From NCBI GenBank assembly GCA_900316255.1, contig ONCI01000009.1:32512-67784 (forward strand): a stretch of 35,273 nucleotides of DNA, in the 5' to 3' direction. Below the pieces are notes generated by a model. The model saw only the letters and a program-made list of their open reading frames with translations, did not search any database and was not told the DNA's origin. Source of the stretch: an uncultured Eubacteriales bacterium (lineage in GTDB: Bacteria; Bacillota; Clostridia; Oscillospirales; Oscillospiraceae). Positions 17,214 to 20,147 of this stretch are shown here, in pieces; the first letter of the stretch is position 1; the number at the start of each line of letters is the position of its first letter. Both the position numbers and the translations under genes were made by a program.

Positions 17214-17780
17214 TCAAAACTCTCCCGCGGCAATCAGACTGTAATGCCCGAGGCGCTCCAGACGGCGCGCAAACTGGCTGGGCGACAGATCCTGATCGTC
17301 GTCGATCCAGTTGAGCATCAGCCGCATGGAGCCGAGAAAGACGTAGTCAAAGATAAATTCCAGTCGATCCCGATCGTAGGTCGGGAATTCTTTTTGCCAC
17401 TCGTCCACGATCCCGTCCCTGACGAGATTCCGCATGCTGTTGAGAAACTGCGGGTCGCCGTTGTCGCCCATCAGCACGCGGCATAGCTCTCGGTTCTGCA
17501 GGACACAGGAATAGATCTTGGCCAGATAACTGACGTTCCTTCCCTCATTCCAAAAGCGGTCGAAGGTCTCCATGTTCTCGGCGATGAAATCGTTCTCGAT
17601 CTCCTTCAAAACCTCCTGGGGCTGGCCGTAATGGAGATAAAAGGTGCCGCGGTTGATTCCGGCCTCCGTGCACAGATCCTTGACCGAGACAGCCCCGATG
17701 GGCTGCTCCCTCAGCATGCGCAGCAGCGCGCGGTGCAGCATCTCTTTCGTAACTCGAACTCTTGCGTCCTGGTTGTTCAT
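17214..17780 (-). CDS. TetR/AcrR-family regulator, divergent from the GH3 gene
   Basis: A 188-residue regulator. The helix-turn-helix (IGAVSVKDLCTEAGINRGTFYLHYGQPQEVL) is typical TetR/AcrR. The C-terminal domain contains EFIFDYVFLGSMRLMLNWIDDD and ends RRLERLGHYSLIAAGEF, the same ending as the stub at 3982-4041. The start at 17780 has GGAGAGCG just upstream; the in-frame ATG at 17804 has no such site. It is divergent from the GH3 gene and a symmetric TetR-style operator lies in the GH3 promoter (17858-17876), so it most likely represses that gene, with a sugar or glycoside as inducer (inference). Confidence 0.85.
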   Translation of the reverse strand: MNNQDARVRVTKEMLHRALLRMLREQPIGAVSVKDLCTEAGINRGTFYLHYGQPQEVLKEIENDFIAENMETFDRFWNEGRNVSYLAKIYSCVLQNRELCRVLMGDNGDPQFLNSMRNLVRDGIVDEWQKEFPTYDRDRLEFIFDYVFLGSMRLMLNWIDDDQDLSPSQFARRLERLGHYSLIAAGEF

Positions 17781-17852
17781 AGCGCTCTCCGAGAAAATCA
17801 ACATTTTGAGGGGATTTGTTCATTAACAGGCAAAGATATTGAAATCTGTTTA

Positions 17853-17881
17853 TTGTAAATAGACACCGCGTCTATTATAAT
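17853..17881 (+). promoter_or_regulatory. Sigma-A promoter with TetR-type operator in its spacer
   Basis: TTGTAA (17853-17858) and TATAAT (17876-17881) are separated by exactly 17 bp. The spacer is occupied by a perfect 7+7 inverted repeat, AATAGAC (17858-17864) and GTCTATT (17870-17876), with ACCGC between. A regulator bound here would block RNA polymerase. The TetR gene diverging at 17780 is the obvious candidate. Confidence 0.7.
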
Positions 17882-18083
17882 GATTATATGATGGCGGAAC
17901 GCCATACGGCGTTCCGCCGAGCCGCTTGGCGGCTCCGCGCGGCAGCAGGGCTGCTGCGCCATATAATCATTGCAATGAGCATCGCGCGAATGATTATTAG
18001 AATCATTCGCTGCCAAACTTGTCGTTTGGCAGCGGAATCAATCGAATCCTCGATTGATTCCGCCTTGCGATGATCATTATAAT
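17874..18083. repeat. 210-bp nested palindrome: two tandem cloverleaf-like units with terminal inverted repeats
   Basis: The outermost arms ATTATAATGAT (17874-17884) and ATCATTATAAT (18073-18083) are perfect 11-bp inverted repeats. Unit A is bounded by a 12-bp stem (17879-17890 with 17960-17971). It encloses three hairpins: 17893-17918 (11 bp, loop ATAC), 17919-17935 (7 bp, loop TTG) and 17942-17957 (7 bp). Unit B is bounded by 17974-17985 with 18067-18078 (11 of 12 pairs). It encloses three more: 17986-18010 (10 bp), 18012-18030 (7 bp, extendable) and 18032-18063 (14 bp, loop ATCC). Almost every base can be paired. No reading frame is convincing. It lies wholly between the promoter and the GH3 gene. 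Confidence 0.9.
18054..18083 (+). promoter_or_regulatory. Possible second promoter formed by the right end of the palindrome
   Basis: TTGATT (18054-18059) and TATAAT (18078-18083) are 18 bp apart, with the -10 provided by the terminal inverted repeat itself. It would start RNA about 40 bases before the GH3 start codon and skip the structured segment. The TetR operator would not cover it. Confidence 0.4.
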
Positions 18084-18131
18084 GGAACCAATCCAATAAA
18101 GCAAGTAAAATAATAGAATGGAGGGAACACG

Positions 18132-20147
18132 ATGAACTTTGAGCAGGCAGTCAAAGCGTATCAGGCAAACCCCATCAAGGAAGAACTGGAAAAGCAGGTC
18201 TCCGCCCTGTGCGGGGAAATGACGCTCAACGAGAAGATCTACATGCTCTCCGGCCACACCATCGGCCAGACGCAGGTGGACATGATCAAGACCGGGCGCA
18301 ACTATAACGTACGCTCGCTGAAGGCGGGCGGCTGCAAGCGCCTGGGCGTGCCGCCGGTAGCCTTTACCGACGGGCCGCGCGGCGTCGTCATGGGCAATTC
18401 CACCTGTTTCCCGGTGTCCATGCTGCGCGCCTCCGCCTTTGACCCGGAGCTGGAATACCGCTTCGGCAAGGCCATCGCCGACGAGGCCATCGCCCAGGAC
18501 GCCAACTACTTTGCGGGCGTCTGCATCAACTTGGTACGTAATCCGCGCTGGGGCCGCACGCAGGAGACCTACGGCGAGGATCCCTTCCTGCTGGGCGCGT
18601 ACGGCGCCACGCTGACCAGGGCCGTGCAGGAGGAGGGCATGATCGCCTGCCCCAAGCACTTTGCCCTCAACTCCATTGAGGATCTGCGCTTCTTCGTCAA
18701 CGCCAAATGCGACGACCGGACGCTGCATGAGGTCTATCTGCCACACTTCAAGAAGTGCATCGACGCCGGGGCCCAGTCCATCATGGGCGCCTACAACAAG
18801 TTTGACGGCGACTACTGCTGCGCCTCGAAGAAGCTGTTGACCGACATTCTCCGGGATGAGTGGGGCTTTGACGGCTTTGTGATGTCGGACTTTGTCAACG
18901 GCGTGCACGACGCGGAGAGCAGTCTCAAGGCCGGGCTGGACATGGAAATGATGTTCACCATGCACTACAACGGCTTTGCCATCAAGAAGCTGCTGAAAAA
19001 CGGCAAGCTGCAGCAGGAGCACATCGACCGCGCCGTGCGCAATATCCTGCGCGTGCTGATCCGCCAGGTGCCGCAGCTGAGGCCCCGCAGCAAGAGTGTG
19101 GTGGGTTCCGTGGAGCATCGGCTCCTGGCCCGTGAAATCGCGGAAAAGGGCATGGTGCTGCTGGAAAACAACGGCGTGCTGCCGCTCTCCAAGGATGCGC
19201 GCGTGCTGGTCACCGGCCCCTACGCCGACGAGGCCAACGTGGGCGACCAGGGTTCCAGCCGGGTCTGGGACAAGAACATCGTGACGCCCTTTGCCGGCAT
19301 CTCCCGCGTGTTCAAAAACGCTTCCCTGACCGAGGGCGATGTGGCGGTGGTCTGCGTGGGCTCCAACCGCAAAAAGGAGGGCGAGTTCTTTGCCAGCGCC
19401 AGCGAGAAGATGAAGAAAAAGCCCAAGGACTGCGGCGGCGACCGGGACAGCCTGCGCCTGGAGGCCGAGGAGGTCGAGCTGATCAAGTCTCTGAAAGCCC
19501 GGGGCAAGAAGGTCGTCGTGACGCTCTACTCCGGCTGCGCCATCATCGTGGAGGAGTGGAAGCAGTATGCCGACGCCATCCTCATGAACTATTACTCCGG
19601 CTGCGAGGGCGGCACGGCGCTGGCCAACCTCCTCTGCGGGGACAGGAACTTCACAGGCAAGCTGCCCTTCACGGTGGCCAAGGACGAGCGCGACTATCCC
19701 GCCTTCCTCAGCATCGGCCAGAAGCCCTATGAAATCACCTACGGCTACTACCACGGCTATACAAAGATGGATAAGGAAGGCATCACCCCCGCCTATCCCT
19801 TCGGCTACGGCCTGAGCTATACCAGCTTTGAAGTCTCCGAAGCTGCTGCCGCGTGGAGCGATGAGGCGCTGACTGTTACCGCGAAAGTCAAGAACACCGG
19901 CGACTTTGACGGCGCGGAAGTCCTGCAGGTCTATGTAGGCTCCCAGGGCGCTGCCAACGGAGACGACCGGCCGGTGAAGCTCTTGAAGGGCTTTCAGCGT
20001 GTGGAGCTGAAGGCCGGTGAGGAAAAGACCGTGACCGTCACGATCCCCAGGGAGGAACTGAAGTTCTGGACGCCCGATGGCTGGGTGCTGGACGCAGGAT
20101 ACACGGTCTATGTGGGCACAGACAGCAAGAACGCAGAACAGGTATAA
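18132..20147 (+). CDS. Glycoside hydrolase family 3 beta-glycosidase
   Basis: A 671-residue GH3 enzyme. The N-terminal TIM barrel carries the substrate-binding motifs TDGPRG, NLVRNPRWGRTQETYGEDPFL and CPKHFALNS and the nucleophile D253 in GFVMSDFVNG. The middle alpha/beta sandwich holds VLLENNGVLPLS and NYYSGCEGGTALANLLCG. The fibronectin-III-like C-terminal domain begins about 570 (YPFGYGLSYTSFE) and ends in a hydrophobic-tail-free VYVGTDSK. No signal peptide, so it is cytoplasmic. Activities in this group are beta-glucosidase or beta-xylosidase/arabinosidase. GGAGGG lies 9 bases before the ATG. It stands alone between the palindrome and a convergent AraC gene whose stop codon is the next base. 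Confidence 0.92.
   Translation: MNFEQAVKAYQANPIKEELEKQVSALCGEMTLNEKIYMLSGHTIGQTQVDMIKTGRNYNVRSLKAGGCKRLGVPPVAFTDGPRGVVMGNSTCFPVSMLRASAFDPELEYRFGKAIADEAIAQDANYFAGVCINLVRNPRWGRTQETYGEDPFLLGAYGATLTRAVQEEGMIACPKHFALNSIEDLRFFVNAKCDDRTLHEVYLPHFKKCIDAGAQSIMGAYNKFDGDYCCASKKLLTDILRDEWGFDGFVMSDFVNGVHDAESSLKAGLDMEMMFTMHYNGFAIKKLLKNGKLQQEHIDRAVRNILRVLIRQVPQLRPRSKSVVGSVEHRLLAREIAEKGMVLLENNGVLPLSKDARVLVTGPYADEANVGDQGSSRVWDKNIVTPFAGISRVFKNASLTEGDVAVVCVGSNRKKEGEFFASASEKMKKKPKDCGGDRDSLRLEAEEVELIKSLKARGKKVVVTLYSGCAIIVEEWKQYADAILMNYYSGCEGGTALANLLCGDRNFTGKLPFTVAKDERDYPAFLSIGQKPYEITYGYYHGYTKMDKEGITPAYPFGYGLSYTSFEVSEAAAAWSDEALTVTAKVKNTGDFDGAEVLQVYVGSQGAANGDDRPVKLLKGFQRVELKAGEEKTVTVTIPREELKFWTPDGWVLDAGYTVYVGTDSKNAEQV

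Follow-up and report, generated by a model that had tools for sequence, protein, structure and literature searches.

A non-coding element of about 200 bp lies between a TetR-family regulator gene and a GH3 glycosidase gene in the window, which is the whole stretch of 35,273 nucleotides analyzed here. It is best explained as non-autonomous mobile DNA, built as an inverted pair of three-armed cloverleaves and served in trans by an enzyme that recognizes the folded DNA, a reading to which we give a probability of roughly two in three. A non-coding mobile element of unusual build was among the possibilities raised in the initial annotation, and it is borne out by dispersed copies, by empty and filled sites with AT and by clustering of relatives within genomes. 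In the proposed mechanism the enzyme supplied in trans would recognize the folded single-stranded (or cruciform) DNA of the element, the ends would be cut at AT and joined to an AT of the target, and copies still able to fold would keep spreading, by which covariation would be imposed on the active lineage. Recognition through folded DNA is likely. The window copy would sit in the GH3 promoter, leave it usable and become the GH3 5′ leader.

The kind is already known, namely small non-autonomous palindromic mobile DNA. The plan of two cloverleaves with covariation at the DNA level is new to the extent of the libraries and literature excerpts searched. It is a more tentative and rather doubtful proposal that these elements form a new class of mobile DNA, whose signal would be the single-stranded fold of two inverted cloverleaves, with an undescribed type of enzyme, an old plan kept in at least three families of one order despite divergence of the hairpins, and landing in promoters with rebuilding of the -10 box. 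In palindromic repeats of the REP kind in bacteria the hairpin is small and the type of transposase is known, whereas the fold of the window element is far more elaborate. Two-sided changes without the wobble signature of RNA make selection for folded DNA directly testable, and a filled site with a 98.7% identical empty one, recent dispersal and a modular design make the hunt for the enzyme tractable. The insertions in -10 boxes suggest a route by which a selfish element may enter promoters with little damage.

Structure and distribution of the element

Positions 17860-18095 of the window fold at -134.8 kcal/mol as RNA (z -12.9) and at -92.4 as DNA (z -14.2), and in both cases none of 200 dinucleotide shuffles was equally stable. 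The twin cloverleaf with three hairpins per outer stem, as first described from the sequence, is thus reproduced in both chemistries, and its units, given there as about 93 and about 105 bp, measure exactly that. The element spans 17877-18080 as AT, 200 bp and AT, in the order AT, unit A, GC, unit B, AT, that is AT-[AATGA..TCATT]-GC-[AATGA..TCATT]-AT. The hairpins of unit A have 11, 7 and 10 pairs and those of unit B 10, 8 and 14 (Table 1). Among 117 copies the junction is exactly GC in 78, and the exact palindrome TCATTNNAATGA is missing from 35.

Table 1. Positions of the element, its parts and its neighbors in the window.
Feature	Position	Strand	Basis
TetR-family regulator gene, upstream (context)	17214..17804	-	
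-35-like hexamer TTGTAA, 17 bp upstream of TATAAT (putative)	17853..17858	+	sequence, alignment
-10 hexamer TATAAT (putative), rebuilt at left edge from flank T and element ATAAT	17876..17881	+	
Left AT dinucleotide	17877..17878	.	one AT in L355 (empty), two in L212 (filled)
Unit A, 93 bp cloverleaf AATGA...TCATT	17879..17971	+	fold and aligned copies
Unit A outer stem	17878-17890 with 17960-17972	+	fold
Unit A hairpin 1	17893..17918	+	fold, covariation
Unit A hairpin 2	17919..17935	+	fold, covariation
Unit A hairpin 3	17937..17959	+	fold, covariation
Junction dinucleotide GC in TCATT-GC-AATGA	17972..17973	.	comparison of 117 copies
Unit B, 105 bp cloverleaf AATGA...TCATT, kin of reverse-complemented unit A	17974..18078	+	
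Unit B outer stem	17974-17985 with 18067-18078	+	fold
Unit B hairpin 1	17986..18010	+	fold, covariation
Unit B hairpin 2	18011..18031	+	fold, covariation
Unit B hairpin 3	18032..18063	+	fold, covariation
Right AT dinucleotide	18079..18080	.	empty and filled sites, 117 copies
GH3 glycosidase gene, downstream (context, outside element)	18132..20147	+	

The edges needed correction. The 11-bp terminal inverted repeat ATTATAATGAT/ATCATTATAAT of the initial annotation does mark inverted ends, but 3 bp on each side belong to the host flank, as the empty sites and the 117 copies place the edge of the element at ATAATGA...TCATTAT; judged from these alignments, the outermost ATT/AAT is a target preference and not element. 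The TetR-family and GH3 neighbors were named rightly, but the operator said to adjoin the element is no more than putative: the inverted repeat AATAGAC-N5-GTCTATT found there is not kept in three aligned relatives. What these three do keep is an imperfect palindrome, TGTTCATTAACA, some 50 bp upstream.

Five full copies of 77-100% identity were found in the own genome, and 53 of 101 genomes of the genus (own genome counted) have a match, which answers the earlier concern that no other copies might exist. An assembly artefact is very unlikely because the copies occur in many separate assemblies. With the structure model of unit B, matches were found in 13 of 300 genomes and 11 of 106 genera of a family draw and in 3 of 394 genomes of an order draw, with the own genome included every time; the strict filters of such large draws make these figures minima, and one genome matched in the genus search (G027) was missed in the family draw. 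When 13 genomes were scored deeply, the richest had 106, 91, 54, 45 and 37 unit matches, which we read as tens of elements since one element gives several match rows, and a pattern scan of named genomes gave at least 116 stretches. Every one of the 80 titles listed belongs to a metagenome assembly or an uncultured bacterium, with the label Oscillospiraceae, Ruminococcaceae, Clostridia, Clostridiales or Eubacteriales, and several of them name goat or sheep gut. The element is scattered among gut bacteria of a single order. No element match was found by blastn in plasmids or phages, and neither of two element patterns has an exact match in viral contigs. In contigs of G287, a genome of another genus, unit B begins at base 29-34, that is, assemblies repeatedly break within the element, so the copy numbers of draft genomes are probably underestimates.

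Mobility and target sites

For three sites, the two flanks were joined and looked for in 102 genomes of the genus. At the window site, G074 and G030 run on without interruption and G395 carries the element. At the second site the element lies within a gene of G073 (alpha/beta hydrolase-like by a weak Pfam match, below cut-off, in an intact relative), and the uninterrupted sequence of G064 is 98.7% identical to it across 687 nt; GTG-AT-GGAAGG in G064 becomes GTG-AT[AATGA...TCATT]AT-GGAAGG in G073, whose copy is a 159-bp deletion derivative. AT stands once in the empty locus (L355) and twice in the filled one (L212). At the third site G090 and G033 align without the element at 75% identity. The comparison of orthologous sites that had been proposed has therefore given the insertion boundaries, with AT on both sides once the site is filled. 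G073 and G064 are species-level genomes; the other long cross-species matches at the sites compared do not exceed 88%, and gene transfer is a possible source of the near-identical stretch of these two.

Recent spread was also seen. In G287, five of the seven copies of unit B that were read have the same 107-nt sequence within differing flanks. For a kinship test, 57 of the 117 copies were 190-216 long and carried a genome label, and 29 of these lie in the four genomes that hold four or more of them; the nearest relative was within the same genome for 21 of the 29, as against a mean of 7 and a maximum of 16 in 200 shuffles. Mobility of the element is close to certain. Two loci hold apparent tandems with a single AT in common, one at about 946 of L241 (TCATT-AT-AATGA) and one around 1340-1760 of L466, as if one element had inserted at the end of another.

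The target preferences were drawn from 117 copies chosen by ends of the ATAATGA...TCATTAT type, 74 of them 204 bp long. Their average flank profile is mirror-symmetric, with 68% T at -1, 65% A at +1 and weaker stretches about 14-18 bp off that are T-rich on the left and A-rich on the right, and insertion targets thus favor T-AT-A. The small size, the terminal inverted repeats, AT on both sides and the symmetric average target agree with an ordinary MITE; its ends would be those of a DDE insertion sequence that is lost or was not seen, its target duplication 2 bp, and its hairpins passive and kept matched by replication slippage and template switching from one arm to the other. The same central dinucleotide, and a target that resembles the joined ends, would also suit a serine recombinase exchanging strands at the central AT, with a circle junction TCATT-AT-AATGA and a target TT-AT-AA. 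T at -1 and A at +1 are positively associated (odds 2.8, p 0.02), and T at -2 and A at +2 avoid each other (odds 0.34, p 0.012), which hints at a polarity of the target. Such an asymmetric component speaks for a third possibility, movement of the REPIN or IS200-IS605 type as single strands by an HUH (Y1) transposase, in which AT would not be a true duplication but the last part of a shared cleavage sequence, TTAT|, and the inverted units would let either strand serve. A hidden-orientation fit of the targets also gave an asymmetric motif; no null was completed for it and it is not relied on. A joined-frame test for in-gene insertions over 97 copies was noisy and was left out of the results.

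TATAAT is read at 148 of the 234 element ends. A -35 match of at least 5/6 to TTGACA stands at spacer 17 for 12 of these 148 ends; at the other 36 spacings (spacers 8-44, 0-4 such matches each) the mean is about 0.9. Judged by this spacing, it is shown that some copies occupy predicted promoter -10 boxes, in which the element end rebuilds TATAAT on insertion. L019 is one such case (TTGACG-N17-TATAAT) and the window copy, TTGTAA-N17-TATAAT, is a weaker one. Its -35-like hexamer is present in two empty loci (L356, L360) as well as in the filled L365, and the window copy sits in the -10 box of a probable GH3 promoter restored by the element end. The GH3 transcript would then start within the element, which would form its 5′ leader.

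Conservation of the fold and kinship of the units

Covariation was analyzed in 34 aligned copies, which are the best matches of the window copy together with the other copies of the own genome and not a random sample. Standard pairs fill 96.8% of the pair cells, and two-sided changes occur at 33 of the 83 pairs, a number that none of 500 shuffles reaches; when the structure is shifted by 1-3 columns only 30-51% is paired. The compensatory changes that the initial annotation had asked to see are therefore present.

Whether RNA or DNA is the folded molecule was approached by counting G·T and A·C cells in 71 in-register copies among 74 distinct 204-bp ones, with two of the 83 pairs dropped (one a constitutive T·G pair, the other largely unpaired). 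By this count 5544 cells are Watson-Crick, 59 G·T, 67 A·C and 81 of other kinds. With all 83 pairs kept, G·T rises to 123, of which 64 come from the constitutive pair. In a tRNA control (acceptor and T stems of 23 distinct CCA-ending tRNAs) there were 24 G·T against 4 A·C, and the two sets differ with a Fisher p of 1.4e-4, which is to be read with the caution that the cells are not independent; against our reading, the single pair 104/196 gives 14 of the 67 A·C cells. Because selection on RNA would favor G·U over A·C, the fold appears to be maintained as DNA rather than as RNA. It also counts against the reading as DNA recognized in its folded form that templated correction of quasi-palindromes, and not selection, could have produced the covariation.

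One orthologous pair, the window and G395, was compared base by base. The element differs at 11 of 204 positions (5.4%) and the 200-nt left flank at 11.5%. Of the differences within the element, four amount to an exchange of two neighboring base pairs, another four disrupt or weaken pairing, and the remaining three fall at unpaired positions. Templated correction, local selection and slow change would each suit this one case. The swapping of adjacent base pairs in place favors the passive hairpins of an ordinary MITE, and the higher conservation of the element than of its flank fits maintenance in place or a host role equally well as it fits our explanation.

That higher conservation, and the start of the window copy at a rebuilt promoter upstream of GH3, would also be expected of a structured RNA or leader that serves the host and has spread by duplication. 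We hold this to be highly improbable, since G·U shows no excess, copies lie between unrelated genes and within a hydrolase-like gene, and the orientation to genes has no significant bias (of 85 copies placed, 13 against 24, p 0.10). A rough gene call makes 33 of these 85 convergent and 15 divergent. Orientation in longer stretches (37 of 78) also had no significant bias, nor did local and 20-kb strand tests, which are silent on use of the lagging strand because the two strand proxies do not agree (r 0.06). Rfam 15 gave no match in the window at gathering scores, the best weak one being a nematode snoRNA (E 0.69). An RNA regulator or riboswitch was rejected as the nature of the family on these grounds, and the highly folded GH3 leader RNA proposed earlier is not supported in this role either, there being neither wobble excess nor significant orientation bias; a GH3 leader is a possible side effect at the window site, because element-free relatives show the location in the -10 box of a probable promoter.

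The two units are related to each other. In four of the five own-genome copies unit B, read from the opposite strand, scores 54.6-56.1 bits with the model of unit A, which gives no match to unit B on the same strand at E 1. Part of this score is self-complementarity, because the model also scores 37-46 bits on the opposite strand of unit A itself. The aligned outer sequences of both units agree, and with the opposite-strand match this makes the element an inverted pair of related modules, each AATGA...TCATT.

Diverged copies keep the plan. Ends and plan are kept in G334 and G376 at 0.65-0.72 identity to the window units, above a baseline of 0.51-0.64 from eight shuffles. Two genomes of other families lie near this baseline with the plan kept, namely G520 (0.59-0.61, apparently two tandem elements) and G503 (0.53 for unit A, 0.72 for a 61-nt unit B that holds a single hairpin). 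Since the plan persists at such identity, copying of arms alone is insufficient, which argues against the ordinary MITE. The G376 variant was found in 1 of 17 genomes of its genus, that is, in itself.

Derivatives lacking a single hairpin recur among the atypical copies fetched. In L208-L219 several lack whole or half hairpins, and the deletions follow the fold. An apparent lone unit B (L314, 318-424, minus strand) and an apparent lone unit A (L479, 16652-16746, plus strand) each have AT on both sides and may be single-cloverleaf elements or deletions between repeated end motifs. A 42-bp remnant (L342, 536-577) keeps both ends with nearly all hairpins gone.

Candidate enzymes and comparison with known systems

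The search for the mobilizing enzyme covered three families, namely Y1 transposases, serine recombinases and IS630-type DDE_3. Neither an enzyme nor an autonomous relative was found in the families and loci searched, which weighs against a trans-acting enzyme that reads the fold. The end-pattern search of seven genomes revealed no longer element at the orphan ends that were read. The ones retrieved proved to be contig ends, degenerate remnants or copies of the element, and a few table matches stayed unread. Separate searches with the units in the fetched loci gave 846 unit matches and 35 orphan rows, in which places are often repeated. An arrangement of unit A, gene and unit B was not recognized in these loci, where 23 wider pairs of A and B were not inspected singly.

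IS630-type DDE_3 was absent from all 14 genomes searched, nine of which bear the element, and this partner was rejected. Together with the want of a longer element among the orphan ends, this makes the ordinary MITE unlikely in spite of its fitting ends and target.

Serine recombinases (PF00239) were found in nine of nine element-bearing and two of five element-free genomes, in keeping with strand exchange at the AT. None of 30 such loci holds an element match or the TCATTNNAATGA palindrome, and the sole matches of two genomes differ in size class (a 226-aa frame in G000, a 484-aa frame in G019, which is 85% complete). The hairpins would moreover be needless for such an enzyme, and we regard the serine recombinase as quite unlikely; as a partner it is present but unlinked.

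Y1 genes are present in 56 of 102 genomes of the genus, two of them checked as RAYT-like, and a DNA-level fold and an inverted pair like that of BIMEs agree with a Y1 transposase. Against it, none of 50 Y1 loci, 20 of which are weaker Y1 matches, holds an element match or the end pattern, the own genome with its five copies has no Y1 match at E 0.001, and only 4 of 117 copies carry the motif GT[AG]G no farther than 20 nt from an end. Movement by Y1 is thus improbable, though it deserves some weight. As a partner Y1/RAYT is present in the genus but unlinked, with no match in the own genome.

Integron attC sites, mentioned in the initial annotation, have R′ and R″ boxes beside an integrase gene. 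Several other known systems were compared with the element. The GC clusters of yeast mitochondrial DNA are GC-rich hairpins flanked by AG or ACT repeats, with which the double-hairpin elements of Allomyces mitochondria are grouped here. The element is not a member of the yeast clusters, being bacterial, about 200 bp long and made of two three-armed modules, with AT and a T-AT-A preference; no relation of sequence or host is claimed, and the likeness is at most one of working.

REP, BIME and REPIN sequences with their RAYT (TnpA-REP) are, in the excerpts of PMC6006769, short non-coding palindromic intergenic DNA in inverted pairs with presumed single-stranded mobilization. The element shares these traits, part of the score for its inverted pair of related palindromic units being self-complementarity, but its modules are three-armed and of 93 and 105 bp where a REP hairpin has 21-65 nt, GT[AG]G, which REPs have at the hairpin foot, is near an end in just 4 of 117 copies and its copies adjoin none of the Y1 loci scanned. 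Bacterial MITEs are described in the excerpts of PMC10969869 as small and non-coding with inverted ends and direct repeats at the target. The element is likewise short and non-coding with terminal inverted repeats (in 117 copies selected by their ends), and AT goes from one to two copies, either as a target-site duplication or as a shared cleavage sequence; it differs in having no parent IS found, a repeat of merely AT and a covarying two-cloverleaf fold without wobble preference. IS607 elements, in the excerpts of PMC6188088, are without terminal inverted repeats or target duplications. A possible dinucleotide crossover in the element would resemble these serine transposons, but the element has inverted ends and AT on both sides. 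No such element is described in the excerpts of the literature searched (including PMC4478555, PMC10969869, PMC2267715 and PMC6006769).

Two Y1 genes were looked at closely, L415 (1515-2108, minus strand) and L424 (1514-2005, minus strand). They are RAYT-like, with no element copy adjoining, and match the NCBIfam REP-associated tyrosine transposase at E 2e-20 and 1e-17, below cut-off. The L415 protein shows, by eye, repeated GGASPSP-like stretches, which may come from its own, different REP family.
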